A stretch of 44,891 nucleotides of DNA from Gammaproteobacteria bacterium (GCA_013697045.1 JACCXJ010000218.1:1-44891); one strand, 5' to 3'. Shown: positions 2,719 to 44,751, numbered from the stretch's first letter. A program made the numbers and translations. The notes: generated from the letters alone by a model not told the origin.

Positions 2719-2795
2719 GCCCTGGTAGCTCAGGTGGATAGAGCGTCCGCCTCCTAAGCGGGAGGTCGCCGGTTCGAGTCCGGCCCAGGGCGCCA
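2719..2795 (+). tRNA. tRNA-Arg (CCT anticodon), with encoded CCA
   Basis: A full cloverleaf can be drawn: acceptor GCCCTGG/CCAGGGC, D-stem GCTC/GAGC, anticodon stem TCCGC/GCGGG with loop CTCCTAA giving anticodon CCT, and T-arm GCCGG TTCGAGT CCGGC. Discriminator G and CCA are encoded. This is the integration target of the island: the last 26 bases are repeated at 39924-39949. The integrated element keeps the tRNA whole on its left side. Confidence 0.95.
2770..2795 (+). repeat. attL: tRNA 3'-end copy of island attachment site
   Basis: The 26 bases from 2770 to 2795 (T-arm to CCA of tRNA-Arg) are identical to 39924-39949. The match ends on both sides (c/a before, a/c after). This is the expected core of a P4-type integrase attachment site, and the integrase gene begins about 200 bases inward. 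Confidence 0.9.
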
Positions 2796-2999
2796 ATCAA
2801 GGGTCTAGCCTGGACGCACATGGAGTCCAGCGGAACGCAACAGCATTGATACTGCGGGGCTTTTCATGCACGCAGCCGTCCGTATTAGTCCACCGACGCC
2901 CATTGACATCCGGTGGGAATATGGTGAGAATCGGGGGGAGCTGTCCCAGCTAGCGACAGGCCTACCCCCCAATGCCCCTGCGTGAGCGTGACCCCCCCC

Positions 3000-4208
3000 A
3001 TGCCCCTCAACAAGCTTACCGATATCGCGATCCGCAGTGCCAAGCTTCGCGAGAAGCCCGTCAAGCTCTTCGATGGCGGCGGCATGTACTCAACCCGAAC
3101 GGATCTCGCTGGTGGCGGCTCAAGTACCGCTTCGCTGGTAAATACAAGGAACTCTCGCTCGGCGTCTACCCCACCGTCGGGCTGAAGGAAGCCCGATCCC
3201 GCCGCGATGCGGCCCGCAGGCAACTGGCGGCGGGCATCGACCCAGGTCTGGCCCGCAAGGCCGAGAAGTGCGCGGCCGCGGACAGTTTCGAGGCCGTGGC
3301 GCGGGAGTGGATCGCGAAGCGCGCGCCGGGCTGGAAGCCAGAGCACACCAGCAAGATCACAGGGCGCTTCGAGCGGGACATCTTCCCCTGGCTGGGCGGG
3401 CGTCCCATCGGTAAAATCATGGCGCCCGAGCTCCTGGCGGTCCTACGTCGCATCGAGGCCCGGGCCGCCATTGAGCTGGCGCACAGAGCGCTACAGAACT
3501 GCGGGCGGGTGTTCCGGTACGCCATCGCTACCGGCCGGGCCGAGCGCGATCCGGCGGCCGATCTCCGCGCTGCCCTGCCGCCGGTCGTTGAGAGGCACCA
3601 CGCCTCGATCACTGACCCGAAGGCCATAGGGGCGCTGCTGCGCGCGATCGACGGCTATAAGGGGTTCGTTCATGACCCAATGCGCCCTGCGACTGGCGCC
3701 CCTCACGTTCGTGAGGGCTGCCGAGCTACGCAAGGCGGAGTGGTCGGAGGCGGACCTCGATGCCGCCGAGTGGCGCATCCCCGCCGAGCGCATGAAGATG
3801 CGCGCGATGCATATCGTCCCGCTGTCGGTCCAGGCAGTCGGCATTCTGCGCGAGTTGCACCCGCTCACCGGGACGGGGCGCTACTTCTTCGCAAGCCTGC
3901 GCACCCCGACCAGGCCGATGTCCGAAAACACCGTCAACGCAGCCCTGCGGCGGCTCGGCTACGCGAAGGATGAGATGACCGGCCACGGCTTCCGGTCGAT
4001 GGCGTCCACGTTGTTGAACGAGCAAGGCTGGCACCGCGACGCCATCGAACGCCAGCTCGCCCATGGCGAGCGCGATGCGGTGCGCGCCGCCTACAACTAC
4101 GCCGAGCACCTGCCCGAGCGGCGGCGCATGATGCAGGCCTGGGCTGATTATCTGGATGGACTGAAGAACGGCGCCGAGGTGGTACCGCTGCGTGGTCAAC
4201 TGGCTTGA
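3000..4208 (+). pseudogene. int: P4-type tyrosine integrase, broken by two frameshifts
   Basis: The translation starts MPLNKLTDIAIRSAKLREKP at 3000, typical of the DUF4102 arm-binding domain. It switches frame at about 3088-3092 (after a Gly-Gly-Gly-Met-Tyr, in a place where homologues have a few more residues), and again at about 3665-3672. The third piece carries the catalytic domain: FVRAAELRKAEW with the first catalytic Arg, then HGFRSMASTLLNEQGW with the His-x-x-Arg box, then a late His and YNYAEHLPERR with the nucleophile Tyr. All catalytic residues survive, but in different frames, so no full enzyme is made unless the shifts are sequencing errors. It faces away from the tRNA, as usual for island integrases. 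Confidence 0.88.
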
Positions 4209-14078: not shown

Positions 14079-14296
14079 CCCGCGCTGCCGGGGGGGATAC
14101 ACTGATCGGCGCTACGGGGCGGACGCCTCGTCATGGTTCGCTGGCGTGCCCACACAGCCCTCTCCGCGGTGGGTCCCTCCCTGCTCCACCGCTCGGCGCC
14201 TTCTTCGAGCTGGCGCAGTCCCTGGGAGCACTACGGCAAACGGGTACGGTTCGGCGGAGCGCCGCGGCAGGCATCGATCGCGGCTGCTCGGGGTTT

Positions 14297-14461
14297 GCTA
14301 CTGCTACAGTTGCTATTCCTGCTACCGTTGCCGGCTTCGGCTTTTGCTTCCGGCGCGGCTGCTACTGCTACAGTTGCTATTCTTGCTACCGTTCCCACCC
14401 GTTGCCCCGGTTGAGTAGCAAAAATAGCAGGAATAGCAGGAATAGCAGGAATAGCAGTAGC
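14297..14461. repeat. TGCTA-rich direct and inverted repeats
   Basis: Two near-identical blocks of about 36 bases (gctactgctacagttgct...) start at about 14299 and 14363. They are followed by an inverted counterpart, tagcaaaaatagcagg, and three tandem 9-mers gaatagcag ending near 14461. The unusual low-GC composition matches a block inside the DUF3987 gene at 35705-35785. I read this as a scrap of a similar repeat-linker gene on the minus strand (LATAIPAIPAIPAIFATQ). Confidence 0.6.
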
Positions 14462-14609
14462 AAGTGGCCCTACTACCTGGCGGCTCGTGAACAAGGAGCA
14501 TGCGCAGGCCTTCGGCCTGCCGCGCTTGCCGGCGACGGAGCCTGATGCGGGCGGTGCTGGGGCAGCTGCGCCGCGTCCTCGGGCTCCGAGCATGGTGACG
14601 TGGTGACCC

Positions 14610-14839: not shown

Positions 14840-15757
14840 GCCTCACCGGATCAACAGACCGGCGAGCCCCAGGTCATCCCCGCCAGCGACGGGACGGCTT
14901 ACCATCTCAGTCCCAATCCAGATCAAGAACCGGCTCTCGACGGACGGGAAGGCCCAGCATCAGCCCCCTCGGCCAAGCTTTGCGCGAGTACGGAGGTGCG
15001 GCCAATCAGGAGAGGCTCCCGTCGCTCTTCCTGCCGGTCCAGCGCGCGGCTGAGCGCTGTGCCTGGCTCAAGCAGATGGCCGAGGGGACCGATTTGGCAC
15101 AAGCACTGGACAGTGCCATGATCGCTGAGGCACGAATCGACCCTCGCTGGCACCGCGTCAACAGGCGCCGGGCCAAGACGGGGTACGCAGACTCCAGACA
15201 CGTATCGTGAAGGCGACGAAGACAGGAGAGAGCACCTGCCACAAGCAGGTCCACCACCAAGAGGCGTCGCTGGGTGCTTTAGCGAGGAGGCGTTCGACGA
15301 TGAGTCTGTGTTCCTGCAATCCGTCTGCCCGTTGGATCGCGCGTGCTGGCCGGGAACGTCGGACACTGCTTGGGCTCGGCGTGGACCGGCGGGTGCTCGA
15401 CAGGGCGGGCCTACTTGCGTCACTGCCGAACGTCTGCGTCGCCACTGGGACCCAGCGCCATTCTCGATCAGGGAGCTGGCTCGTCAACCTGGTGTTTCCG
15501 AGGCGAGCGCGCGCCAGGCGGTGGTTCGGGACGAGGCAGCGGTCTGCGCCGCCGAGCGGGCAGAGAAGGCCGGGCGTGGCTCTTCGGACCAGTCTGAACT
15601 GATGGCACTATCCGGCAGCTATGGTGTGGCGGTTCGCCGCTTGGCTCCTACCGATGCAAACGAAGGCTCCCGACTATGGGTGCTCGGGCCAGTCGATTAC
15701 GCCCGCGCGTTCTTACCCAGGGATCCCACACTGGACAGGTTTTGACACGGACAACAA
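14836..15757. other. Decayed region, weak coding traces only
   Basis: A frame from ATG 14836 to 15210 (124 residues) starts in overlap with the recombinase remnant but has a low-complexity start. Its later part (QRAAERCAWLKQMAEG) is somewhat protein-like. At about 15430-15600 a frame reads WDPAPFSIRELARQPGVSEA, suggesting a degraded helix-turn-helix. Nothing else is convincing on either strand. I treat the whole stretch as mobile-element debris. Confidence 0.4.
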
Positions 15758-15759
15758 AC

Positions 15760-16218
15760 ATGACTGATCTGCTTATCTCAATCTCAGGGCCAAGTCAAGA
15801 ACGACCCCCGCACCCTCCGGGTACTGTAGCATGGCTTGAGGATTTTGCGGCGAGGGTACGGAATGTCGACTTCGAGCGGGCGCGTAGATTGTTCAGTCCA
15901 ACCATCTTTGGGTTCGGGACAAAGGCGGACGCTTATGACAGCCTAGATGAGTGGCATCATGACCAGTGGAGCCACGTGTGGCCAAGAACCACCGGGTTTC
16001 GGTTTGACCTGATGACGCTACGCACGATCCTGAGCGTTGACGGGTCACTATGTTGCATCGCATGCGAGTGGGGGAGCAAGGGGGCGCGCGAGGATGGTTC
16101 CCTTTTTCAGCGACACGGTCGCAGCTCTATCTTGTTGGCCCGCACCTCAAGCAATGAGCTAGGCTGGGTCGGGGTTCACAGCCACTTTTCTATGCCGCCC
16201 GGGCCAGTTGATTCGTAA
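15760..16218 (+). CDS. NTF2-like (SnoaL/DUF4440-type) protein
   Basis: 152 residues. The pattern of an N-terminal helix (GTVAWLEDFAARVRNVDFER), a second segment (LFSPTIFGFGTKADAYDSLD), a Trp-rich turn (QWSHVWPRTTGFRFD) and a beta-rich end is that of the NTF2-like cone fold used by small isomerases, cyclases and binding proteins. I cannot pick catalytic residues. The ATG at 15760 was chosen over a longer frame because upstream sequence is debris. It lies 105 bases before the amidotransferase gene and has the same lower-GC character, so it probably belongs to the cargo operon. Confidence 0.65.
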   Translation: MTDLLISISGPSQERPPHPPGTVAWLEDFAARVRNVDFERARRLFSPTIFGFGTKADAYDSLDEWHHDQWSHVWPRTTGFRFDLMTLRTILSVDGSLCCIACEWGSKGAREDGSLFQRHGRSSILLARTSSNELGWVGVHSHFSMPPGPVDS

Positions 16219-16325
16219 AGGTAATATAAAAGTAAATACCGACGAGGGGCACAGGTTATTTCAGCGTGAGCCTGTAATTGAAAGAGTATTCTGGGATCGA
16301 CCGGTCACTAGGCAAGGCCTGAATG

Positions 16326-17852
16326 ATGTGTGGAATTGCCACAGTTTTTCGAGCAAGACCATACAGCGCCGAGCCGTTCGTGCGAACCATGCTTGGTAGA
16401 CTCCGGCATCGAGGTTCTAGCTACGACGAGATTTGGTCAAGTCCGTCGGTAGCCCTTGGAGCCAACCGCTTGGAGATCGTTGACCCGGCAGGAGGCAGGC
16501 AACCGGTGTCCAACGAATCGGAAACCCTATTCGCAGTTTTTAACGGAGAGATCTATAACCACCGTGAGCTGTCTCGGCTTTTGACAGGCCGCGGCCACCG
16601 CATCCGCTCTAAATGCGACAGCGAAATCCTAGTCCATGCCTTCGAGGAATGGGGATCGGGTATGTGCGACCATCTGCGGGGCATGTTCGCCTTCGCCCTT
16701 TACGACGCCCGGCATGATCGAATTCTACTGGCGCGTGACCCGGCCGGGGTGAAACCGCTCTACGTCGGCTATGGACACGACAACTCGTTTTTTGCAGCGT
16801 CCGAAGCGAAGGCCTTGGTTGGGTTTGCCACCTCCGCCGATCTGCTTGCCCCTGGACACCTCCACGACGGCTCCCAACCCGTTGCTTACCATCCTCCTCA
16901 GGAAACAATGCGATACCATAGCTTTGGCGAGGCAGCCGCTCATTTACGCGAGCTTCTCAATGAGGCTGTCACATTGCGCCTTCCGGAAGATTTGCCTTTT
17001 GCCGTTTTTCTGAGCAGCGGCATTGATTCCTCGCTGATCCTCGCCTTGGCGGCGAGGGCGCGTCCTGATGTGATTGCCATCACGTTCGGGCTTCCAGATT
17101 CGCCTGAGGTCCGGGACGCGAAGCAGTTCTGCCAATGCCTTGGCGTTCGCCACGAAGTGGTCGAGCTACCTTTCCAGGCTCTGGTAGCCCGTTACGAGGA
17201 GGTAATCCGGCACCTCGAAAGCTTTGAACCCAATTTGGTCAGGGCATCCCTCATTACCCACGCGCTTTGTGAGCGAGCGCGGCAGCTCGGCGTGCGCGTC
17301 GCCTTGGCTGGTGAGGGTGCTGACGAACAGTTCGCAGGTTACGAGGACTTCCGGCACCTCCCCGAAGAAGAACTTGATCGCGTCCTGCAAGCCTTCTTCG
17401 ACGACCTTCACCGCACTCAGCTACTGCGCTGGGACAAGATCGCCATGGCCCACATGGTAGAAGTCCGCACTCCCTTTATGGATCGCCGAGTGGTGGATTT
17501 CGCGCGTTCCGTGCCTCCCTCGTTCAAGCTGAGTCGGCCCTCTGGAAAGGCAACACCGCTGGCGAAAGCAATTCTTGCGGAAGCGGCAAAAGACCTTCTT
17601 CCTGAATCGATCAGGCTGCGAGCGAAAATCGCAATGGATGACGGAGTCACAGCAGGCGGTGCGCGCCAATGGAATAGGCTCTTATCCGCCCATTTTGCCT
17701 CCTGCCCGCTTCCACCCCTACCGGAAACTATTTGTGTACAATTTGCTATCACCAATAAGGAGGAGCTTGTTAATCTGTCCTTGATGCTACGTTATCTTCC
17801 ACCGGAATTCATTTCCACCTCTCGGATCACCGTACGCAAGACACCGATATGA
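16326..17852 (+). CDS. asnB-like: Asparagine-synthetase-like class II amidotransferase
   Basis: 508 residues. Of two adjacent ATGs (16323, 16326) the second gives Met-Cys-Gly-Ile, which places the glutaminase Cys right after the initiator as the class requires. Glutaminase residues are in place: NRLEIVD (Arg), FNGEIYNHREL near residue 72 (Asn, Gly, Glu) and CDSEILVHAFEEWG (Asp). The synthetase half has the pyrophosphate loop FLSSGIDSSLI near 230 and GEGADEQFAGY near 330, then MAHMVEVRTPFMDRR. So glutamine hydrolysis and ATP-dependent amide formation are both plausible. It is shorter than many AsnB proteins, and such homologues often modify acids other than aspartate. The stop overlaps the next start (ATGA). 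Confidence 0.88.
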   Translation: MCGIATVFRARPYSAEPFVRTMLGRLRHRGSSYDEIWSSPSVALGANRLEIVDPAGGRQPVSNESETLFAVFNGEIYNHRELSRLLTGRGHRIRSKCDSEILVHAFEEWGSGMCDHLRGMFAFALYDARHDRILLARDPAGVKPLYVGYGHDNSFFAASEAKALVGFATSADLLAPGHLHDGSQPVAYHPPQETMRYHSFGEAAAHLRELLNEAVTLRLPEDLPFAVFLSSGIDSSLILALAARARPDVIAITFGLPDSPEVRDAKQFCQCLGVRHEVVELPFQALVARYEEVIRHLESFEPNLVRASLITHALCERARQLGVRVALAGEGADEQFAGYEDFRHLPEEELDRVLQAFFDDLHRTQLLRWDKIAMAHMVEVRTPFMDRRVVDFARSVPPSFKLSRPSGKATPLAKAILAEAAKDLLPESIRLRAKIAMDDGVTAGGARQWNRLLSAHFASCPLPPLPETICVQFAITNKEELVNLSLMLRYLPPEFISTSRITVRKTPI

Positions 17853-19312
17853 AAACGCCACGCTTCATAACAGTTATCACCGGTCTGTGCCTCGTTCTGT
17901 CAGGCACGAGTCACGCCGCCGAGTCCTTGAATAAAATCAAGGTCGCCCACTGGGGGCACGAAAAGATCCTCATTTATGCACCCCTATACATTGCCATGGA
18001 TGGAGGATTCTTCGAAAAGGAAGGTCTCGACATCGAACTCGTCTATTCCGGCAATGACGATCAGGTCTTCGCCACAGTCCTCTCTGGGGCCGCCTCGTTC
18101 GGCATCGGAGATCCGGCTTTCACCGCCATTTCCCGCGAAAAGGGGGGGGAGGGAAAAGTGGTCGCTGCTTTGGTCGGGCGCGTCGCCAACTGGGCTGTCG
18201 CAAAAGACCCGGCCATCCAGCCGTTCACTGATCCAAAAAAACTAAACGGCTTGCGTGTCACCTCGTTTCCCTCTCCATCAACGACGTTTACCATCCTCTC
18301 TGGCCTGAAGAGGGACCTCAATCTCTCCAAGATGGTCATCAAGCAACTCGCCTTCGGGACCGAACAGGCCGCCCTCGAACGCGGCGAAGCCGATCTCGCC
18401 ATCATGCTGGAGCCTCAAGCATCCGTCGCGGAATCCCAGGGCTTCCGCGTGGTCTGGTCCCTGGCCGAATACTACGGCGACTTCGCTCTGACCGGGGTTA
18501 CCGCCATCGATTCATTCATCAAGAACGAGCGGGACACGGTCCAGCGATTCGTCAACGCTCTACAGAACGCCCTTACCTTCATCGGCAAGAGTCCAGAGGC
18601 GGCCGCTGGCATGCTCGGCAAAAGCTTCCCCACGCTTTCCGCGGCTATCGTTCAGTCCGCGACCAAGCGAATGGTGGAGGATAAAACAATCCCCCGAACC
18701 GCCGTAATCAACAAGAAAGCGTGGCTCAAAACCCTCAACATCCGGAAGACCATGGGAGACCTGAAGTCCATGGAAATCGCAGACGCTTGCTTAGACTCGT
18801 CATTTGCCGAGAAGGCAGTCTTCGATCCCAAACCACTTCATCACGACTCACCTACAGCAGAACCTCCTACAGCAGCGCCTCCTACAGCAGCGCCTCCTAC
18901 AGCAGAACCCGACTTCCCCGATTCTTCTCTGGGTTGGAGCACTCTCGGATTCTGGGCCGACGTGTCCTCCCTCGTAGGCCTTCTATCCGCGGCATTCTCT
19001 TTAGCCATTGTCGCTAAGACGCTTCTTGAGCATCGAAAAGGACATGTCGCTTGGAACAAATTATCGGAGTTTGAGCAGAACTGTGGGCGGATCATCGCAA
19101 ATTGCTTTGCAAACTCCGTAGATAGAGTTGAAAAGGACAAAATTCTCCGCGCACTGACCGACAACCACAGGATTGAACAGTCCGCGGCTAACGACGTGCT
19201 AGCTAAGTATTTAAAGATCGGCCTGATCGAGGAAATTGGGAAGACCGGTACCTGTAAACCACTCGTGACCCCATTCGCCAAACTCGTTCCCCTTTTTCAG
19301 CTCTTTCGTTAA
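17849..19312 (+). CDS. Substrate-binding protein fused to TM helix and winged-helix tail
   Basis: 487 residues with unusual order. Residues 1-24 are a signal peptide (FITVITGLCLVLSGTSHAAE). Residues 26-330 are an NMT1/THI5- or SsuA-like binding domain (HEKILIYAPLYIAMDGGFF, then FGIGDPAFTA near residue 86). Residues 335-354 form a Pro-Thr-Ala linker from four 15-bp repeats. Residues 374-392 are a membrane helix (LVGLLSAAFSLAIVAKTLL). Residues 393-487 are a charged cytoplasmic tail with a winged-helix-like stretch, ILRALTDNHRIEQSAANDVL and KYLKIGLIEEI. Normal binding proteins end after the second part. The layout resembles a one-component transmembrane sensor. It is coupled to the amidotransferase gene by ATGA. 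Confidence 0.8.
   Translation: MKTPRFITVITGLCLVLSGTSHAAESLNKIKVAHWGHEKILIYAPLYIAMDGGFFEKEGLDIELVYSGNDDQVFATVLSGAASFGIGDPAFTAISREKGGEGKVVAALVGRVANWAVAKDPAIQPFTDPKKLNGLRVTSFPSPSTTFTILSGLKRDLNLSKMVIKQLAFGTEQAALERGEADLAIMLEPQASVAESQGFRVVWSLAEYYGDFALTGVTAIDSFIKNERDTVQRFVNALQNALTFIGKSPEAAAGMLGKSFPTLSAAIVQSATKRMVEDKTIPRTAVINKKAWLKTLNIRKTMGDLKSMEIADACLDSSFAEKAVFDPKPLHHDSPTAEPPTAAPPTAAPPTAEPDFPDSSLGWSTLGFWADVSSLVGLLSAAFSLAIVAKTLLEHRKGHVAWNKLSEFEQNCGRIIANCFANSVDRVEKDKILRALTDNHRIEQSAANDVLAKYLKIGLIEEIGKTGTCKPLVTPFAKLVPLFQLFR
18851..18910 (+). repeat. Four tandem 15-bp repeats coding a Pro-rich linker
   Basis: Units cctacagcagaacct or cctacagcagcgcct repeat four times without interruption, encoding PTAEP/PTAAP. 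The repeats keep the frame, so copy-number change by slippage would alter only linker length between the periplasmic domain and the membrane helix. Confidence 0.85.
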
Positions 19313-19348
19313 TGCGCCTCTTCGTTACCAGCAACACGGTCAACTAGA

Positions 19349-20665
19349 ATGAAAAGCACGACTGACGTTGAGATTGTGCCATGCATCGACAGTCCCCTGT
19401 ATGCACCGGTCTATCTCGCTATTATTGGCCTAGCAAAACGGTGCGCCGCACAAGTTCCCGAGCGTTCTTCAGCGCTACCGCTATCTATAGGTTCCCAGTC
19501 CTTCAATCTCCAGTATGGACCGTCAGCTGGAGGCGATGTGCAGGTATTGACTCACTTAGATTCGGACGAGAAGTCAACGCTGCGCATCGGAATCTGTGAT
19601 CCGATAACCGTTATAGAACGAAACTACGAAGAAACTCGCTCGCTCAGACGCTTAACATGCATCCCGAAGTACCAGATCATGGGTGTTTTTATAAACAAGA
19701 TCGCCCTATCGCTGGTTACAAAGAAGCGACGCCTCCCCCAAGCTAGAGACAAGAGTGGGAAACCCCGAACGGGGTTGGCACTGGAGGAGTATGAGAGACT
19801 TATGGCGGTGCACCAGATAATCAACCAACTAAAAGACGACAGCCTGAATTTTCCTGGAGTTTTTAACCGTTGCGATCCTCACAGCCGAGTGAAATATTCT
19901 TTTTGGTCGAAGGGAAGGACTACTCAGTATTTGGTTAAGCATTTCCTGGAAATCCAAACTCAGGAGAGAACAGAGGAGGGGGGAGGCGAACGTAGGCAGG
20001 AGCCGAGTTTTATTCATCCTGACCAAGTTCTTAACGAGCTTTTAACAAGCCATAAAGATGTGGCGATAACACACGATCCGTGGACGATAACGTCGACGGC
20101 TGTTGCGAATCAATTTCAATTTCTGTGCCGTGAATGTTTTCCCTCGATTGAATTTCCATTCTCCTGCATAGTTATTCCGAAAGCGGGTAGGTCGCCGGAA
20201 TACGATACGCTTTTGCGACATTTCATGGCCGCGCTGCTTGAAGGTCTAATCGTTGTCACGAGGCATTCCGGCTATGCGGTGAAACTTCTTACGGATTGGG
20301 CGCCTTTCTTCAGGAACTATGGGCTGGCACATCCGGACAAGGTTGGATCTATTATATCTGGCGCAATCAACCACTTACTCAAGATCGGGTGTTTTGCGGG
20401 TAATCTCATCCCTCAAAGCACCGCGTGGGAATATGCGCTAGCCATGGATCCTGACGGGTGGCAAGCCAGGGTGGCAGAAATGAAAGAGATTACCGGTGCG
20501 GAAACCGCTTGGACAGACATTGCGTGGGAGATAGTTCACAAATCGCTTGATTGGCAGTTTGTTGAGGAGCTACCGACCGATGATGACTATCTAGCTGGAG
20601 TTCGGCGGTACTTCCTAAGGGCATTCAAGGGTCCTGAACCTAATGCAATTGCCGCCAACCGTTGA
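19349..20665 (+). CDS. Substrate-binding-like protein without signal peptide
   Basis: 438 residues. The start VEIVPCIDSPLYAPVYLAII matches the first strand and helix of NMT1/SsuA-type binding proteins. RIGICDPITVI near residue 80 aligns with GIGDPAFTA of the upstream gene. There is no N-terminal hydrophobic or lipoprotein signal, so the product should stay in the cytoplasm. A charged insert (residues about 130-225, with ERTEEGGGERRQE) and a long helical end are not seen in usual binding proteins. Codon use is AT-richer than anything else in the window. It lies 36 bases after the fused sensor gene and overlaps the ATPase gene. Exact family is not recognised. Confidence 0.65.
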   Translation: MKSTTDVEIVPCIDSPLYAPVYLAIIGLAKRCAAQVPERSSALPLSIGSQSFNLQYGPSAGGDVQVLTHLDSDEKSTLRIGICDPITVIERNYEETRSLRRLTCIPKYQIMGVFINKIALSLVTKKRRLPQARDKSGKPRTGLALEEYERLMAVHQIINQLKDDSLNFPGVFNRCDPHSRVKYSFWSKGRTTQYLVKHFLEIQTQERTEEGGGERRQEPSFIHPDQVLNELLTSHKDVAITHDPWTITSTAVANQFQFLCRECFPSIEFPFSCIVIPKAGRSPEYDTLLRHFMAALLEGLIVVTRHSGYAVKLLTDWAPFFRNYGLAHPDKVGSIISGAINHLLKIGCFAGNLIPQSTAWEYALAMDPDGWQARVAEMKEITGAETAWTDIAWEIVHKSLDWQFVEELPTDDDYLAGVRRYFLRAFKGPEPNAIAANR

Positions 20666-21425
20666 GGAACAACCGCTCATTTCTCTGGAGGGAGTACAGG
20701 TTGTCTACGGAGCTAACCACTTGTTTACCCCCGTTCATTCGAGGATTGTTGCCGGCGAGCTCTTATCAATTGTCGGCCCGAGCGGCTGCGGAAAAACCAC
20801 CTTTCTTCTTGTACTAGCTGGTCTACTGCGGCCAGCGGTAGGCAACCGCGTATTAGAAAACAAACTAGTAGACAGTAGAATTATTTATGTGCCGCAACAG
20901 GACGCGTTACTTCCTTGGCGTTCGCTACGGGCGAATCTGGGCTTGGGGAGCGAACTGCAACATTTAGGCCTAGCTTCGGCGGCTCGCGTCGAGAAATGGG
21001 CAAGGATTTTTAATGTGACTAGTTTTCTAGAAAAGCGAGTGCATGAGTTATCGGGCGGCATGCGAAAGCGCATCTGCCTCGCTCGCGCCTTTTGCGCGGA
21101 TCCTTCCGTGGTGTTGTTAGATGAACCCTTTAATAATCTAGACTTTGTTGATCGCCGTCGTGTGGAGACGTTTCTCCGCACGTGGATAGCTGAGGACCGA
21201 CGGGCCGCGGTATGCGTTACGCACGACATTGAGCAAGCGGTAGCGATGGGTGACCAAGTCGGGTACTTCAGCAAACCGCCCGACGATCCGAGGAACGACC
21301 TCATGCGGTTCGATGTGATGCCGATTCCTGAGTCGTTGCGAAAACATCCCCCTTCCCAGCGCTGGGCACATCCCGAGTTTCACGGTGTCGTCGAAAAGAT
21401 AGAGCGAATGTTTGATCACGGCTAG
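20643..21425 (+). CDS. ABC transporter ATPase, SsuB/TauB type
   Basis: 260 residues with all nucleotide-binding motifs: Walker A GPSGCGKTTF near residue 44, Q-loop VPQQDALLPWRSLRANL, signature LSGGMRKRICLARAF, Walker B VVLLDEPFNNLD and H-loop VCVTHDIEQAV. It belongs to the nitrate/sulfonate/taurine importer class, like the permease that follows. The start ATG lies inside the preceding gene (23-base overlap), indicating coupling. The C-terminal tail is about usual length. Confidence 0.92.
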   Translation: MQLPPTVEEQPLISLEGVQVVYGANHLFTPVHSRIVAGELLSIVGPSGCGKTTFLLVLAGLLRPAVGNRVLENKLVDSRIIYVPQQDALLPWRSLRANLGLGSELQHLGLASAARVEKWARIFNVTSFLEKRVHELSGGMRKRICLARAFCADPSVVLLDEPFNNLDFVDRRRVETFLRTWIAEDRRAAVCVTHDIEQAVAMGDQVGYFSKPPDDPRNDLMRFDVMPIPESLRKHPPSQRWAHPEFHGVVEKIERMFDHG

Positions 21426-22188
21426 TCCACGCTCCAGTATGCTTGTCCGCGTCGGTCTACGGTTCTTGCCCCTGCTCGTCTTCCTCGCAGGCTGGCACCT
21501 CATCTGCGCTGGCAATCAGCGTCGGACGTTTCTTTTCTCAACGCCGGGGCGGGTCGCTCAACAGTTTTGGGAGGATCTGACCTCGGGTGTTCTCGCCGGC
21601 CATGCCGGGATCACGGCTTCTGAGGCTTTGGTAGGCTTCATCTTGGCTACTTTAGCCGGTACCATTATCGGTCTGCTTCTGGCATCGTGGTCCAGGCTTT
21701 CAGACATAGTGGCGCCTTATCTTGGTATGCTGGGTGCCGTGCCTGTTTATGCTCTCGCACCGATGACCATCATCTGGTTCGGAATCGGGTTCTGGCAGAA
21801 GGCCGGCATTGCCTTCCTTTCGACTGTGTTTGTGGCTACGAATCAGGCGTTCCAAGGGGCCAGCCATCCTCCGGATGACCAGATGTTGATTTTCCGGGCC
21901 TTCCGGGCGAGACCTTTGCAGGTGCTCTGGAAACTGCGTTTTCCTGTCGCCTTGGCATGGGTAGCGTCCGGATGCCGCCTGAATGTCGGCTTCGCCTTCC
22001 TGGGCGCTTTTCTGGGCGAGATCATCTCATCGAATGTCGGGCTTGGCCACTACATCATGAAAGCGAGCAGCCTCTACGACGTGCCTCGGGTGCTTAGTGG
22101 GGTTCTCGCGCTGCTCATGGTTGCATTTGCCATAGATAAGGCGGTGAGTGCGCTATTTGTCGCACGCGCCCGTTCGATGGTTCGCTGA
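21412..22188 (+). CDS. ABC transporter permease, SsuC/TauC type
   Basis: Up to 258 residues. The frame begins at TTG 21412, overlapping the ATPase; an ATG at 21439 is the alternative start. Five to six membrane segments are visible ([55 protein letters not shown], and others). The EAA loop region is [20 protein letters not shown] and the last helices are [19 protein letters not shown] and [15 protein letters not shown]. Together with the ATPase it would make a homodimeric importer. It ends 15 bases before the hsdM remnant. Confidence 0.9.
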
Positions 22189-22202: not shown

Positions 22203-22676
22203 GTGCCTACTGGCCCTGCTCTTTCACACGACCCGCAGGTCGCGAGCGCCGAGGGCGAAAAGGGTGGCGAGTTCTACACGCCACGCTGCGTGGTTAAGCT
22301 GCTGGTCGAGATGCTAGAACCCTACCGCAGCCGGGTGTACGACCCCTGCTGCAGCTCCTCGGGCATGTTCGTGCAATCGATCGAGTTCATCCGTCACCAC
22401 GCCAACGGCAACCGCAACGGTGGCAAGGCGACGGGCGACATCTCGTTCTACGGCCAGGAGTCGAACTATACCACTTGGCGGCTCGCGAGGATGAACCTCG
22501 CCATTCGCGGCATCGACGGCCAGATCGCCCACGGCGACCGCCATCCCGACCTCAAGGCCGACTTCATGCTCCCCAATCCGCCCTTCAACGTCAGCGACTG
22601 GGGCGGCGAGCGCCTGCGCGACGACAAGCGCTGGCGTACGGCATGCCGCCCGCGGGCGACGCCAACTTCGCGTTGA
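22203..22676 (+). pseudogene. hsdM: Type I restriction methylase (HsdM) fragment
   Basis: The central part of HsdM remains: [20 protein letters not shown], the SAM motif region [14 protein letters not shown] and [14 protein letters not shown]. The N-terminal domain is missing. At about 22640 the frame shifts; [11 protein letters not shown] continues in another frame for a few codons and is lost at the helicase start. Where active enzymes have Cys-Gly-Ser-Gly-Gly, this has Cys-Ser-Ser-Ser-Gly. It is a relic of an older type I system whose hsdR tail appears at 32.5 kb. Confidence 0.8.
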
Positions 22677-22683
22677 GTACGGC

Positions 22684-26258
<3,575 letters not shown>

Positions 26259-26262
<4 letters not shown>

Positions 26263-29060
26263 AGAAGCTCATCGAAGTCGCCTTGCCGCTTCCCGAGATC
26301 AACGACGCATCGGCCTACGATAAGATGCCGGGGATCGGGCCGCACCCGAAGGGCATTCACCACTGGTGGGCGCGGCTCCCGCTGCCAACAGCGCGGGCAA
26401 TGCTATTCGCGTCAGTGGTTGACGATCCGAGCGCGCACCCAGAGAAATGGCCGACAGAAGAAAGCCAGGACACCGAGCGCGACAGACTGTTCGACATCAT
26501 GCGGCGGATGATGGGGAAGAAGCTGCACGAGCAGCCGCAGGTCTATGCCGAGGCGCACGCCGAGATGCTCAAGGATACCGGTGGAGAGCTACCGGTCGTC
26601 TTCGACCCGTTCGCTGGTGGGGGCTCAATCCCGCTTGAGGCCAACCGCCTGGGCTTCGAGGCCCATGCGGGCGACCTAAACCCGGTGGCGGTGCTTCTCA
26701 ACAAGTGCAACCTGGAGATCGCACCTCGTTGGGCTGGCCGTGCGCCCGTGAATCCCGCGGATCGCAAGCAGATCGGCGGCACCGAAGCCTGGCGCGGCAC
26801 GCACGGGCTTGGGTCCGACGTGCGCTACTACGGTCGCCTCGTCCATGACCGCGCGCGGCATGAGCTGGGGCACCTCTACCCGGAGGCGCGCCTGCCGAAG
26901 GAGTACGGCGGGGGGCAGACGAACGTGATGGCCTGGATCTGGGCACGTACAGTCGTGAGTCCGGACCCAGCGGCGCGCAGGGCGCACGTACCACTCATCA
27001 GCACTTTCTGGCTTTCCAGCAAGAAGGGAAGCGAGGCGTGGCTCGAGCCGGTGGTGGAAAAAGCGAAGGGCTCCTGGCGCTTCGAGGTTCGCACGGGGAC
27101 ACCGAAGGACCGGTTAGCGGTCAAGATAGGGACGAAGACGGGGCGCGCCCAGTTCCGCTGCCTTCTGACCGGCACGCCGATTCCGGACGATCACATTAAG
27201 GCCGAGGGAATCGCGGGCAAACTCGGAATGGTTTTGCTTGGGATCGTGGCGGAGGGGAAGCGAGGACGTCTCTACCTATCTGCAGATGTGGAACACGAAC
27301 GCGCTGCTGATGTAGATCCGCCGAGTGTTGAGTCCGGGGAAATGCCCGACAACGCTCGTTGGTTCTCTCCGCCGCTTGTCGGCTTTAAGACTTACACGTC
27401 TCTTTTCACTGCCCGCCAGCTCACCGCAGTGGCGACGTTGAGCAACCTCGTCAAGGCGGTCAGCGCGGACGTACGTCGGGAGGCACAGGTCGCGGGTTTG
27501 CCAGCCGAAGAGTCAGACGCCTACGCGCGCGCGGTCACGACATTCCTCGCGCTGGCCGTGAACCGTTGCGCGGATTTCAACAATGCGATTTGCCGATGGA
27601 GTCCCAGCAACCAGAAGGTGATGAACCTGTTTGGTCGCCAGGCCATTCCAATGGTGTGGGACTTCGCTGAAGCGAACATTCTCGCCGACTCTGTCGGCGG
27701 CTGGAGCACGTGCAGCGGACACGTGGCAGATTGCATTGAGGTCATTGCGGTTGGGAACAATCTGGCCTGCGAGGCACGCCAGATCGATGCCGCCGCGGGT
27801 GCCGATGGGCTGAATAGCCTCCTCGTCAGCACCGACCCGCCTTACTACGACAACATTGGCTACGCTGTACTCTCGGACTTCTTCTACGTCTGGCTTCGGC
27901 GCACGATCGGCGGCCTCTACCCGGACCTCTTCAGCACGGTGCTTGTGCCGAAAATGCCCGAACTCATTGCGTCGCCCGAGCGCTTCGGCGGTGACAAGCA
28001 TAAAGCGAAGGAACACTTCGAGTCCGGCTTCCGCCGTGCGTTCACCAGGCTACGCCAAGAGATGGACCCGCGGTTTCCACTAACGGTCTACTACGCCTTC
28101 AAACAGGCCGACGAGGAGAGCGGGGATGTAGACGAGGGCACAGAGGGCGCTCCGGGCGTGGACCTCACCACGGGATGGGAGACGCTCCTTGAGGCGCTAA
28201 TCGCGAGCGGTTTCCAGATCACGGCTACCTGGCCTGTGCGTGCATCACAGAAGTGGCGCATGGTGTCGATGGGCACCAATGCTCTTGCTTCCTACATCGT
28301 GCTCGCCTGTCGCTGTCGCGCTGACGACGCTCCGCAGACCGACCGTCGCACCTTCGTCGCCGAGCTGAAACGCGAGCTGCCAGTCGCGCTTCGGCATCTC
28401 CAGCAAGGGAACATCGCACCGGTTGACTTTGCCCAAGCGGCCATCGGACCGGGAATGGCGATTTACTCGCGCTACCGGCATATCCTGGAGAGCAACGGCA
28501 GGGCGATGAGCGTGCGCCCGGCTCTGCATCTCATCAATCAGACCCTGACCGAGGTGCTCTCAGAGCAGGAAGACGAGTTCGATGCCAATACACGCTGGGC
28601 AATCGCCTGGTTCGAGCAGCACGGTTTCGATGAGGGAGAGTACGGCGACGCGGAGTTGCTTAGCAAGGCGAAGGTGACCTCGGTCGGCGGTCTCGAGCAG
28701 GCGGGCCTCATCCACTCCAGGCGCAGCAGGGTGCGGCTGCTGCGGCCCGACGAGCTTCCGCGGGATTGGGATCCTGGTACCGACAAGCGCCTCACGATTT
28801 GGGAGATGACCCATCATCTTGTGAGGCTCTACTTCCAGGAGCAGGCCGGCGACGCAATCACTTCCGTCCTGCTGCGCCGGATCGGGTCGCGTGGCGAGGT
28901 CGCCCGCGACCTTGCCTACCGGCTCTTCGATGTCTGCGAGAGGAAGAAACGATCTCAGGAAGCGCAGGCCTACAACGCCCTCGTCCTCGGGTGGCCGGAG
29001 ATCGCGCGGCTGGCGCGATCGGCGAGGTCCGAGCAGGCGAGATTGTTCGAGGAAAGGTAA
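26259..29060 (+). CDS. DUF1156 adenine-specific DNA methylase
   Basis: 933 residues. The start KKLIEVALPLPEIN with HPKGIHHWWARLPL is the DUF1156 N-terminus. The SAM motif VVFDPFAGGGSIPLEA is near residue 117, and catalytic STDPPYYDNIGYAVLSDFFY is near 525, so both parts of an N6-adenine methyltransferase are intact. The order (binding motif, long insert, catalytic motif) fits the family. It is coupled to the helicase by ATGA and followed by the DUF499 gene after 3 bases. By analogy with other methylase-containing defence modules it should mark self DNA; the recognised site is unknown. Confidence 0.9.
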
Positions 29061-29063
29061 CCG

Positions 29064-32411
<3,348 letters not shown>

Positions 32412-35283: not shown

Positions 35284-37911
35284 TCACCTCATGCCGCCCC
35301 GGATGCCCTCGGCGAATGACTGGGCGTAGCCGCGCAAGGTAGGCACGGCCGGGATCTCGCCCGCCTCGATGTCGGCGATGTCCTCGGGGCTCAGCAGAGA
35401 GCGGAACACCTCCGGACTGATGCCCGCCACCCCCTCGCAGGCCGCCGCCAGGGCCTCATCGAGGGGGACCGGTGCCCCCGTTGGCCTAGGGAGCCCGGCG
35501 ATCGCCGTGACGGCGGACCCGGGGCCGTGGTAGCGCTCGGCGAAGGCTTGCCACTCGGGCAGGTTCCAGCCGCTCGGGGTGTCCACCTCGACCGTCCGGC
35601 CGCCGGGTTCGAGGATGGCCACACGCCACCACAGGCGGTCGGGCCCGCCGTCGCGGGCGGCGGGGGACAGCGGGGGCGCGCCTTCAGTTTTTTCACTCCC
35701 AGGGCTTGCTAACGCTAAAGTTGCTAATCCTGCTAATCCTGGGGCAACTTTAGCAACTTTAGCTGCTTTAGCATTAGCAGCACCCACAGGCTCATTTTTC
35801 AACTCTCCATGGATCAGGTCGGCCAGTGTCATTCGGCACCCCCAGCCAGCAAAGCCGGGTTTCACCTCGATCTTCTTCTGGCGCCCTTCCTTCACCAGCC
35901 GCGCCCGGTCAAGCTCATCAAGCTCGCGCACGGCGGAATCGATCACGGCCCTCTCTCGCAGTCCGGCCGGCCCGTATTGCTGAATCCTGCCCGTCGGGAC
36001 ACTGGATGTTCCCTCCCGCCGGCAGTACTCGATCAGCCACGTGTCCAGTCGCACCGTGTTCGCCAGTTCCACCGATAGGGCCACCTCGCCGAAGAAACGC
36101 CGCGACTCGTTCAGGTGCCATGCCGCGATCCGGCTTGCGGCCTTGAACACGTCGGGCCCTATCGGACCGTCCATGTCATCCTCGAATGCCTGGAACAGTG
36201 CCGCCAGCCGTACAGCGTTGTCGGCGGTCTTGCTCGCCACGTCGCGCACGTCGCACAGCTCGCCCCCGTTACGCAGCTTGCCCTCGATGGCGTCGTGAAA
36301 CTTCACCCATTCGGCTTTCGCGTCCGGTGTCAGCATCAGCACGGCCGGGGACAGATCCCCCTCTTCATTCATCGGAGGCGATTCTTCGAGGATCTCGGCA
36401 ATGCGTTGATTGAATGCGGCCAGCGCGGGCCAGTTTTCGGGCGCTTCGGTGAAGGGACGATAGCCCTGCGTCGATTCCGGCCAGGCGATAAGGAACCTGG
36501 CGAGAAACCCGGTGCCCCGGGCCAGCCCTTCAGATCGCTCGAAGAAGTTACGCAACGTCACTTCCTGCACCTGCAAAGCCAGGGTCAACCGCGCACTGCG
36601 CACCGTGAAGGATTCCGAAGTGCGCCGCCCGATGGACAACTCTCTGCCGTCCCACAGGATGTTCAGCAGCGCCAGATTCCGCATGATGCTGTCCCTGCCC
36701 ATGGCATGGGCTCCGAACACGATCCCGGCCTCGCTCGATGCCACCACAGCGGAAGGCCACTCCTTCGCAAGTAACCAGGCCAAGTGCTCGGGTGTCTCAT
36801 CCATGCACAAGAGCTTCGGCACCCTTGGGGCTTCCGGCTTGTCGTGTTCGAGCTGCTTCAGGTCTTCCCCAAGACCGCCGGTTGCCTTGCCGGTCTTTTT
36901 CGCTTGCTTGATCGCCAACAGGATCCCGTCGCGCTCAGCCGTCCATTTCCCGAAGCTCGCCGCGTAGTCCTTCAGGGCAGGCCCGGCCTTTTCAGCTTCG
37001 GTCTTTTCAAACTCACGGATCGCTGACGTGAAGAACCCGTCGCACGTCGTTTTCCGCTCACCCGAGTCGGCGATCGTCAGCAAGAACAGGCTCGACGGGC
37101 CTTGCAGTTTCTCAGCTCGCTTCACGTCTACATGGGCCTGAACCGTTGCCGACAGCGCGCCCAGCGCAGAGGATGCCACCAGCGGCACAGGTGCCTTAAC
37201 GAAGCCCGCCACCTCCTTCACCGCTCCCCGGATGATGTCGGGCAGGGCATCCAACGGGTAATCGACCGCCGTCACTTTTGCCAGCAGCGGCATAGGCTCC
37301 GGCCATTCGTCGCCACGCCTGGCCTCTACGCACGGGAGTGCCGCTATCGCCGCCGCCGTCGCGGCCGGGTTCGCCTTGAGCCAATCCACCACATCGCCCT
37401 TCTTGGGCAGCCCGAGCTTCGCCACGTCGATCACGCGCACGGTGCAGCCGAGCGCCAGCAGGCTTTCGGCCGCATCCGTCGCGTACCGCTGGCCGGCTTC
37501 GTCGTTATCCGGCCAGACAGTCACGTCGCGCCCGGCCAGCGATCGCCAGTCGGCCTTCGCCGCGGAATCTGCCGCGCCGCTTGTCGTGGCCAACACCCCA
37601 ACCTTCGCCAGCGAATCGGCACACCATTCGCCCTCGACTAGCCACACGGTTTCCTCGGGCCGCGCGGCCAGCTCGTGCAGGCAGTACAGCGGCTTGCCGT
37701 CCGGGTATTCCGGCTCGCCAAGCTCGAAGCCCAAGCCGTTCACCCGCATGGGCCGGATCCACTTTTCCCCGGTGTGCGGGTTTTTCAGCCGGATGCGCCA
37801 GTACCATGGGCCGCCGTCCGGGTAGGTATAGGTGTGCAGGGCCTCGGGTTTATACCCGTCGCGGATCGCGGAAGCGGACAGTCGTCGCGCAGCTTCCTGG
37901 GGTGCGTTCAT
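35284..37911 (-). CDS. Toprim-DUF3987 primase/helicase-like protein
   Basis: 875 residues from ATG 37911, which overlaps the stop of the CHC2 gene. The N-terminal Toprim domain shows VWLVEGEWCADSLAK near residue 90 and TVWPDNDEAGQRYA near 135. DUF3987 follows: YPLDALPDIIRGAVKEVAGF and the ATPase loop FLLTIADSGERKTTCDGFF near 280. A hypervariable linker (NAKAAKVAKVAPGLAGLATL) encoded by TGCTA-rich repeats separates the C-terminal domain. With the CHC2 protein it makes a split primase-helicase, likely the replication initiation arm of the island. A longer start at 38010 is not needed. Confidence 0.85.
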   Translation of the reverse strand: MNAPQEAARRLSASAIRDGYKPEALHTYTYPDGGPWYWRIRLKNPHTGEKWIRPMRVNGLGFELGEPEYPDGKPLYCLHELAARPEETVWLVEGEWCADSLAKVGVLATTSGAADSAAKADWRSLAGRDVTVWPDNDEAGQRYATDAAESLLALGCTVRVIDVAKLGLPKKGDVVDWLKANPAATAAAIAALPCVEARRGDEWPEPMPLLAKVTAVDYPLDALPDIIRGAVKEVAGFVKAPVPLVASSALGALSATVQAHVDVKRAEKLQGPSSLFLLTIADSGERKTTCDGFFTSAIREFEKTEAEKAGPALKDYAASFGKWTAERDGILLAIKQAKKTGKATGGLGEDLKQLEHDKPEAPRVPKLLCMDETPEHLAWLLAKEWPSAVVASSEAGIVFGAHAMGRDSIMRNLALLNILWDGRELSIGRRTSESFTVRSARLTLALQVQEVTLRNFFERSEGLARGTGFLARFLIAWPESTQGYRPFTEAPENWPALAAFNQRIAEILEESPPMNEEGDLSPAVLMLTPDAKAEWVKFHDAIEGKLRNGGELCDVRDVASKTADNAVRLAALFQAFEDDMDGPIGPDVFKAASRIAAWHLNESRRFFGEVALSVELANTVRLDTWLIEYCRREGTSSVPTGRIQQYGPAGLRERAVIDSAVRELDELDRARLVKEGRQKKIEVKPGFAGWGCRMTLADLIHGELKNEPVGAANAKAAKVAKVAPGLAGLATLALASPGSEKTEGAPPLSPAARDGGPDRLWWRVAILEPGGRTVEVDTPSGWNLPEWQAFAERYHGPGSAVTAIAGLPRPTGAPVPLDEALAAACEGVAGISPEVFRSLLSPEDIADIEAGEIPAVPTLRGYAQSFAEGIRGGMR
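35705..35785 (-). repeat. TGCTAA-rich repeat block inside DUF3987 gene
   Basis: Short units such as gttgctaatcctgctaatcc and actttagcaactttagctgc recur and partly face each other. The block is AT-rich inside a GC-rich gene and codes an Ala/Lys/Val linker. The block at 14297-14461 has the same style. Confidence 0.65.
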
Positions 37912-39923: not shown

Positions 39924-39949
39924 CGGTTCGAGTCCGGCCCAGGGCGCCA
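39924..39949 (+). repeat. attR: second copy of tRNA-Arg 3' end
   Basis: The 26 bases are identical to 2770-2795. The sequence before it is island DNA and no tRNA body is present, so this is the duplicated end left by integration. Confidence 0.9.
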
Positions 39950-41903: not shown

Positions 41904-41984
41904 CCCCCCATTTGGGAGGATATACCTGACGGCCCCGACCGGGTAATCTTTCAAAAGGAAGGGCGCAGAGAAAGGCGGCTCTCT
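41904..41984 (+). repeat. Dispersed 81-bp repeat, copy 1
   Basis: About 81 bases starting cccccatttgggaggatata are nearly identical (roughly six differences) to 44584-44664. A short third piece (cccccatttggg) lies at about 43005-43016. Confidence 0.75.
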
Positions 41985-42203
41985 GACCCCCCGGTCCGGG
42001 GCTGGCCACTCGGCGCCCTTCCTCTAATCTTGCGGTTTTTTTTGTGCCCTCCGTTTCTGCCGGGTGTGAGGCTAATACAAGACCCCTCGGGGGATACGCC
42101 CGCCGTCTTACTGCGGTTTCAAGGCACCCGGCGCCCATCATTGGACGCGCGTCAATGCCGGAAACCATATAGGTGAACACCATGGCGAGAAAAAAAGGAG
42201 GAA

Positions 42204-44532: not shown

Positions 44533-44664
44533 TGAGGGGGCGCCCCTACGGCGACTCTCGGCGACGCCGCAGGCGAGTCACACCCCCCATTTGGGAGGAT
44601 ATACATGACGGCCCCGGCTGGGTAATCTTTCAAAAGGAAGGGCGCAGAGATAGGCGGTTCTCTG
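44533..44664 (+). repeat. Composite direct repeat downstream of RTX gene
   Basis: 44533-44569 repeats 42963-43000 and 44584-44664 repeats 41904-41984. The element seems modular, a GC-rich palindromic part plus a longer conserved part, like a dispersed non-coding repeat family of this genome. Confidence 0.7.
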
Positions 44665-44751
44665 GCCCCGGGCTAGCCCAACTTTCGCAACCGAGGCATG
44701 TAGAGACATGAACTCCTTTATTATTCAATGGGTTGCTCACAAAGGTCTGTA

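Follow-up and report, generated by a model that had tools for sequence, protein, structure and literature searches.

A six-gene operon with an NMT1-type importer, a membrane-tethered receptor and an asparagine-synthase-type amidotransferase in a gammaproteobacterial integrative element

The stretch of DNA studied here (the window, 44,891 nucleotides) comes from a draft genome of a Gammaproteobacteria bacterium (GCA_013697045.1, JACCXJ010000218.1:1-44891). At positions 15,760 to 22,188 it carries six genes, which we designate P1 to P6. They encode an ATP-binding cassette (ABC) importer with a membrane-tethered receptor, a putative second receptor, an amidotransferase and an NTF2-like protein. 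An earlier reading of this DNA, made from the sequence only (hereafter the sequence-only reading), had proposed that these genes form a new system. Below we describe the genes, their relatives and the element in which they lie, and weigh the explanations of their joint occurrence.

Anatomy of the six-gene unit

All six open reading frames are on the plus strand, at the positions that the sequence-only reading gave, and are intact, with zero internal stops. The genes and the notable parts of P3 are as follows (aa, amino acids; TM, transmembrane).

15760..16218, + strand: P1, 152 aa, NTF2-like protein (SnoaL_3; Pfam SnoaL_3 3.4e-10)
16323..17852, + strand: P2, 509 aa, glutamine-dependent asparagine-synthase-type amidotransferase
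17849..19312, + strand: P3, with signal peptide, NMT1-type solute-binding domain, Pro/Thr linker, TM helix and basic cytoplasmic tail
18851..18909, + strand: 15-bp tandem array of 3.9 copies (Tandem Repeats Finder), coding for the Pro/Thr/Ala linker of P3
19034..19309, + strand: cytoplasmic tail of P3, about 90 aa, with a plausible but not established winged-helix fold
19349..20665, + strand: P4, 438 aa, a family orphan; probably an NMT1-type binding protein that has diverged and lacks a signal peptide (cytoplasmic)
20643..21425, + strand: P5, ABC importer ATPase, NitT/TauT type (ABC_tran 1.1e-26)
21412..22188, + strand: P6, ABC importer permease, SsuC/TauC type (BPD_transp_1 3e-18), with a TTG start

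The overlaps reported by the sequence-only reading are exact: 4 nucleotides (nt) between P2 and P3 (ATGA at 17849), 23 nt between P4 and P5, and 14 nt between P5 and P6. P3 and P4 have no such overlap; 36 nt lie between them. P1, which has a further in-frame ATG upstream at 15676, is the loosest member of the operon because it lies 104 nt upstream of P2.

The G+C content (GC) changes from about 0.65-0.67 upstream to 0.50-0.58 in P1-P6 and to 0.65-0.70 in the following genes. The description of six same-direction genes with a lower GC than their flanks (about 0.65-0.70) is thus confirmed. The P4 gene has a GC of 0.497, below the other five genes. When its codon usage was scored against these five, its own frame was the best, with a small signal.

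The importer, the receptor-like proteins and the amidotransferase

P3, P5 and P6 constitute an importer of the NitT/TauT (NMT1) type: an NMT1-type solute-binding protein (SBP), a BPD_transp_1 permease and a motif-intact ATPase are encoded in adjacency. The Walker A motif, the LSGG signature, Walker B and the H-loop of P5 can be read from its sequence, and its best NCBIfam match is TauB-like, below the cut-off.

Genomic relatives were collected by a pattern scan of one genome per species, which yielded 45 loci with the nearest receptors of P3. P5- and P6-like genes are present at 43 of them. An amide hydrolase is encoded at 41 of the 45 loci (in 37 of these it is FmdA, an acetamidase/formamidase, mostly directly behind the permease), a count biased by the derivation of the scan patterns from an alignment that included hydrolase-linked members. 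P1, P4 and the P3 tail occur at 0 of the 45 loci, as does a full AsnB; similarity to AsnB was seen once, partial and on the opposite strand. In the plasmid collection, P3-like receptors occur in 97 records, and no match extends over 80% of P3. These hits were not motif-selected, and all six annotated plasmid neighbourhoods that were inspected encode an ATPase, a permease and an amidase or acetamidase/formamidase. No amide hydrolase was found among the six genes of our locus or the adjacent scanned genes. In one interpretation offered by the sequence-only reading, the importer and receptors detect a small acid or amide; this class of ligand is supported by the relatives in SBP-ATPase-permease operons with amide hydrolases, a linkage not known to that reader.

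In the tree, P3 pairs with the receptors of two loci, L016 (39% identity) and L056. This group is sister to the FmdA-linked clade, with moderate support and long branches, and the set around P3 is linked to amide hydrolases on either side. L016, from a deltaproteobacterial metagenome-assembled genome, is the closest transporter relative (39/37/41% identity). It comprises an SBP-ATPase-permease set with a CmcI-type methyltransferase behind the permease. The receptor of L056 (3982-4614) is 43% identical to P3 over 186 residues; it is cut by the end of a contig that is labelled Pacearchaeota and is possibly misbinned.

The solute-binding domain of P3 (NMT1, Pfam, 6e-23) follows a signal peptide, read from the sequence, and ends at about residue 324. 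A hydrophobic TM helix spans approximately residues 370-393 and has basic residues on its C-side. This topology is consistent with a cytoplasmic tail, as in the model of a membrane-tethered one-component regulator. The tail gave no family match. Its single-sequence structure model has a pLDDT of 58.6 overall and contains helices at tail residues 12-27, 34-45 and 49-63 (pLDDT about 63-79). The top list of fold matches contains many winged-helix proteins (Fur, Lrp/AsnC-type, BrxR, LexA), all of them non-significant (E at least 0.7). A receptor tethered in this way and bearing a cytoplasmic tail is a single feature without any relative found. The literature search yielded nothing relevant on fusions between binding proteins and winged helices, or on one-component regulators that are tethered and contain a binding-protein domain.

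Neither Pfam nor NCBIfam gave a match for P4, and the PDB gave no significant one. Aligned by hhalign with a profile built from 28 P3-family receptors, P4 scores 27.4, compared with 15.5 +/- 2.5 (maximum 24.1) for 150 shuffles of P4, 24.1 for reversed P4 and 10.5-16.4 for seven other proteins of the window. When the halves of P4 were searched apart, each of them beat all 120 shuffles, in the correct order and register. Residues 5-25 align with the start of the mature receptor domain and residues 287-366 with its end; the E-values are weak (0.004-0.026). These alignments are only suggestive of homology to the P3 receptor family. P4 has neither a hydrophobic segment nor a signal peptide. It is best read as a putative cytoplasmic receptor-like protein, because the alignment begins at the mature N-terminus and no hydrophobic segment is present.

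The picture that the sequence-only reading drew of these two proteins stands in part. The signal peptide, NMT1 domain and TM helix of P3 are confirmed, but the winged helix of its tail is only plausible. The view of P4 as a cytoplasmic binding-like protein is backed by weak collinear profile alignments but not by any family match. Structure prediction of both proteins, which had been proposed as a check, gave three helices of moderate confidence for the P3 tail and little for P4 (single-sequence pLDDT 37).

P2 contains the domains GATase_7 (7e-41) and Asn_synthase (7.5e-58). It scores 336 bits against the model of glutamine-hydrolysing asparagine synthase TIGR01536, above the curated cut-off of 267, and 351 bits against the AsnB equivalog PRK09431, below the curated cut-off of 499. 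Read from the second Met (16326), the protein begins with MCGI. The active-site motifs are retained (N-terminal Cys, NGEIYNH, the PP-loop SSGIDSS, GEGADE), and P2 can be aligned with E. coli AsnB across most of its length. However, P2 has N-L where the E. coli and human enzymes carry T-T ahead of IRAS/VRAS. This change leaves room for another acid as substrate but is no proof of one.

The closest P2 relatives that were found have 34-38% identity, and none has the P1-P6 neighbourhood. The nearest plasmid relatives belong to a Streptomyces cluster of the non-ribosomal peptide synthetase (NRPS) type and to a Tistrella cluster with an ABC transporter. Phage relatives are remote only. Two relatives in class members adjoin a glutaminase and a glycine-betaine-type importer. 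As a side observation, in two class genomes (L069 3774-10994 and L070 3405-10649) the AsnB gene is divergent from a glycine-betaine-type importer, which consists of an ATPase and a fused OpuAC-permease; a glutaminase with a long N-terminal extension and a methyltransferase are nearby. This arrangement is a recurrent glutamine/asparagine-linked set. For P1, a single-sequence search found no relatives in 369 class genomes.

A single locus within an integrative element

The six-gene set is a singleton in everything searched: about 1,350 genomes yielded no relative of P4 or of the tail, and P1, P4, the tail and a full AsnB are all missing from the 45 loci described above. No P4 relative was found in a phylum sample of 399 genomes, and no relative of either P4 or the P3 tail in a class sample of 369 genomes. 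For neither was a relative accepted from 46 genomes of the L016 phylum, 289 genomes of the Acuticoccus class, 247 genomes of the Prauserella phylum or 21 genomes or records holding relatives, these four sets having no positive control. A lone match from the 46/289/247-genome searches (E 0.0086, 14 bits, 24% identity, with an internal stop) was taken as chance. No P4 relative was found in plasmids, and a DNA-level plasmid search gave nothing. Pattern scans for P4 or the tail in IMG/VR and in one genome per species returned none, and the literature search found nothing relevant on AsnB together with acetamidase and SnoaL. The idea that the six genes are a recurring system is not supported: no other locus was found in which the importer is accompanied by P1, P4, the tail or a full AsnB. 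Homologues of AsnB and of the importer occur mostly apart, an outcome that the sequence-only reading had itself named as refuting its proposal.

The operon lies inside an integrative element of 37 kb, and a 26-bp sequence from the 3' end of tRNA-Arg is repeated at its two boundaries:

2770..2795, + strand: left attachment site, 3' end of tRNA-Arg (tRNA region 2719-2795), 26-nt exact direct repeat
39924..39949, + strand: right attachment site, element end, 26-nt exact direct repeat

The element encodes ArdC, ParB, SRAP, MT-A70, DUF3987, the Hma defence system and the operon. The DUF3987 gene has relatives in 10 other class genomes. Five of these stretches (at most 20 kb each) were read; DUF3987 is present in all of them and an integrase-like match in three, and none contains any of P1-P6 or HmaABC. 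Most simply, the operon is cargo of the element, since the stretches of the DUF3987-bearing relatives lack P1-P6. No repeats of at least 9 nt are shared by the two ends of the six-gene unit, so there is no sign of a transposon boundary. Directly behind P6, a fragment of an N6-adenine methylase (22203-22676) starts and ends mid-protein, between P6 and HmaA. A complete HmaABC (helicase, methylase, ATPase) at 22684-32411 adjoins the operon.

Three further observations concern the element and its surroundings. A tyrosine integrase inside the left end (2972-4208) is split over two frames, the arm and central domains in one and then the catalytic domain; this is either a broken gene or an assembly indel. 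A TTGCTACTGCTA-type repeat forms a cluster at 14296-14463, with copies in both direct and inverted orientation, and a further 73% copy is at 35707. Just outside the element there is an 87-nt direct repeat with 93% identity (41904-41990 and 44583-44669, spacing 2679 nt).

Interpretation and comparison with known systems

We prefer, tentatively, to read the unit as an operon gained by horizontal transfer that takes up and senses a small amide or carboxylate, with P2 as an amidating enzyme. It builds on the observed gene anatomy, importer family, amide-hydrolase linkage of the relatives and location in the integrative element; the claim of the sequence-only reading that there is one importer operon with two receptor-like proteins and an amidotransferase is supported. 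The relatives suggest the ligand class, and the intact motifs of P2 point to amidation. The sensing roles proposed for the P3 tail and P4 would follow from topology and from the precedents of NasS, NrtC and CmpC.

P3 would bind the ligand outside the inner membrane and pass it to the P5/P6 importer. Unlike its relatives it would stay tethered by the TM helix, and its cytoplasmic tail could report on, or act on, the transporter or DNA. P4 would then be a receptor inside the cell, the P3 tail being an outside-in reporter. P2 may move the amide nitrogen of glutamine onto the imported carboxylate or a derived product, a chemistry opposite to that of the amide hydrolases that accompany related importers. 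P1 could be an accessory protein of the small-molecule-binding or isomerase type. A more specific version, a dual-receptor importer in which the tethered outside receptor with a winged-helix output and the inside receptor of the same family compare the levels of one ligand outside and inside the cell, coupled to its amidation by P2, we consider unlikely.

If true, this would be a compact case of an ABC importer gauging its ligand outside and inside the cell through a pair of receptors from the same family. It would also show an SBP that has become a transmembrane sensor by gaining a linker encoded by repeats, a TM helix and a tail, and an amide-uptake lineage reused with an amide-forming enzyme. 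As long as the only example is this one from a draft genome, the general importance is limited.

Several points weigh against the preferred reading. With a single locus, no conserved neighbourhood speaks for a functional tie between the importer and P1, P2 and P4. The hhalign probability of P4 is only 5-8%, i.e., the homology is weak, and the fold and function of the P3 tail are unproven. The hydrolase count carries the bias of the scan patterns. The closest relative, L016, has no amide hydrolase nearby, and an amide-like ligand is therefore bracketed by the relatives but not demonstrated. No promoter or terminator above chance level was detected.

The strongest alternative, which seems to us rather unlikely, is an ordinary nutrient-uptake operon: a small nitrogen compound is imported, its nitrogen is used by P2 acting as a plain asparagine synthetase, and neither the P3 tail nor P4 has a role in sensing, both being passive or in decay. 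The importer is indeed of a common kind, and P2 scores above the TIGR01536 cut-off and can be aligned with E. coli AsnB. Yet P2 fails the AsnB equivalog cut-off (351 vs 499 bits) and has N-L in place of T-T. Moreover, P4 is a full intact frame of 438 aa overlapping the ATPase gene, and decay does not readily account for a tail that follows a TM helix flanked by basic residues.

A cassette of the natural-product kind appears improbable. P1 and P2 would make an amidated metabolite, the importer would retrieve the product or a precursor, and the receptors would sense the operon's own product. SnoaL folds are found in polyketide pathways. The Streptomyces and Tistrella clusters with the nearest plasmid relatives of P2 fit this explanation, as does the CmcI-type methyltransferase behind the L016 permease. 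However, the unit has no other biosynthetic enzyme and no exporter, and the 34-38% identical relatives of P2 also occur elsewhere, e.g., beside a glutaminase and a betaine-type importer.

It is still less probable that SnoaL, AsnB, the importer and P4 are chance cargo, acquired separately and lying side by side with no joint function. The overlapping start and stop codons of P2/P3, P4/P5 and P5/P6 argue for one adapted operon, and the sequence relation of P4 to the P3 family also speaks against chance. This stands against a co-occurrence found nowhere searched, the low GC of P4 and the truncated N6-methylase fragment, which starts mid-domain directly behind P6 as a sign of rearrangement.

The sequence-only reading had also raised a signalling or self/non-self chemical role next to a defence block. 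That the unit works in defence or self/non-self chemistry together with the neighbouring Hma genes is very improbable: adjacency on the same element is all that favours it, whereas P1-P4 match no defence model and P5 matches generic ATPase models only (P1-P5 scanned), GC is 0.50-0.58 in the unit versus about 0.61-0.70 in the separate Hma block, and the importer family is metabolic.

Among known systems, the FmdA/amidase-linked NMT1 importers have the same SBP, ATPase and permease families, gene set and direction. They differ from our operon, which has an AsnB-type enzyme and no hydrolase, P4 between the SBP and the ATPase, and an SBP that is tethered and tailed. P2 shares with E. coli AsnB (PDB 1ct9) the organization of a two-domain glutamine amidotransferase and the active-site motifs, but it is distant, stays under the equivalog cut-off and has the N-L change before the IRAS motif.

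In the Pseudomonas amide operon, AmiC controls the amidase operon with the ANTAR protein AmiR (PMC3795266). AmiC is a ligand-binding sensor partner of the binding-protein kind in an amide operon, a possible parallel to P4, but there is no AmiR here. NasS is a cytoplasmic NrtA-like nitrate sensor with the ANTAR protein NasT as its partner (PMC3795266). By weak alignment P4 is similar to it, and would also be a binding protein of the NMT1/NitT type that lacks a signal peptide and is encoded next to genes for uptake; in contrast, no ANTAR protein is encoded by the six genes, and P4 has long insertions and a C-terminal extension. The ATPases NrtC (PMC6603209) and CmpC (PMC11349869) have a C-terminal NrtA-like regulatory domain. 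They are similar to the proposed arrangement in that a cytoplasmic binding-protein-like module is tied to the ATPase of a NitT-type importer, whereas P4 is a separate protein, far more diverged and encoded before the ATPase with a 23-nt overlap.

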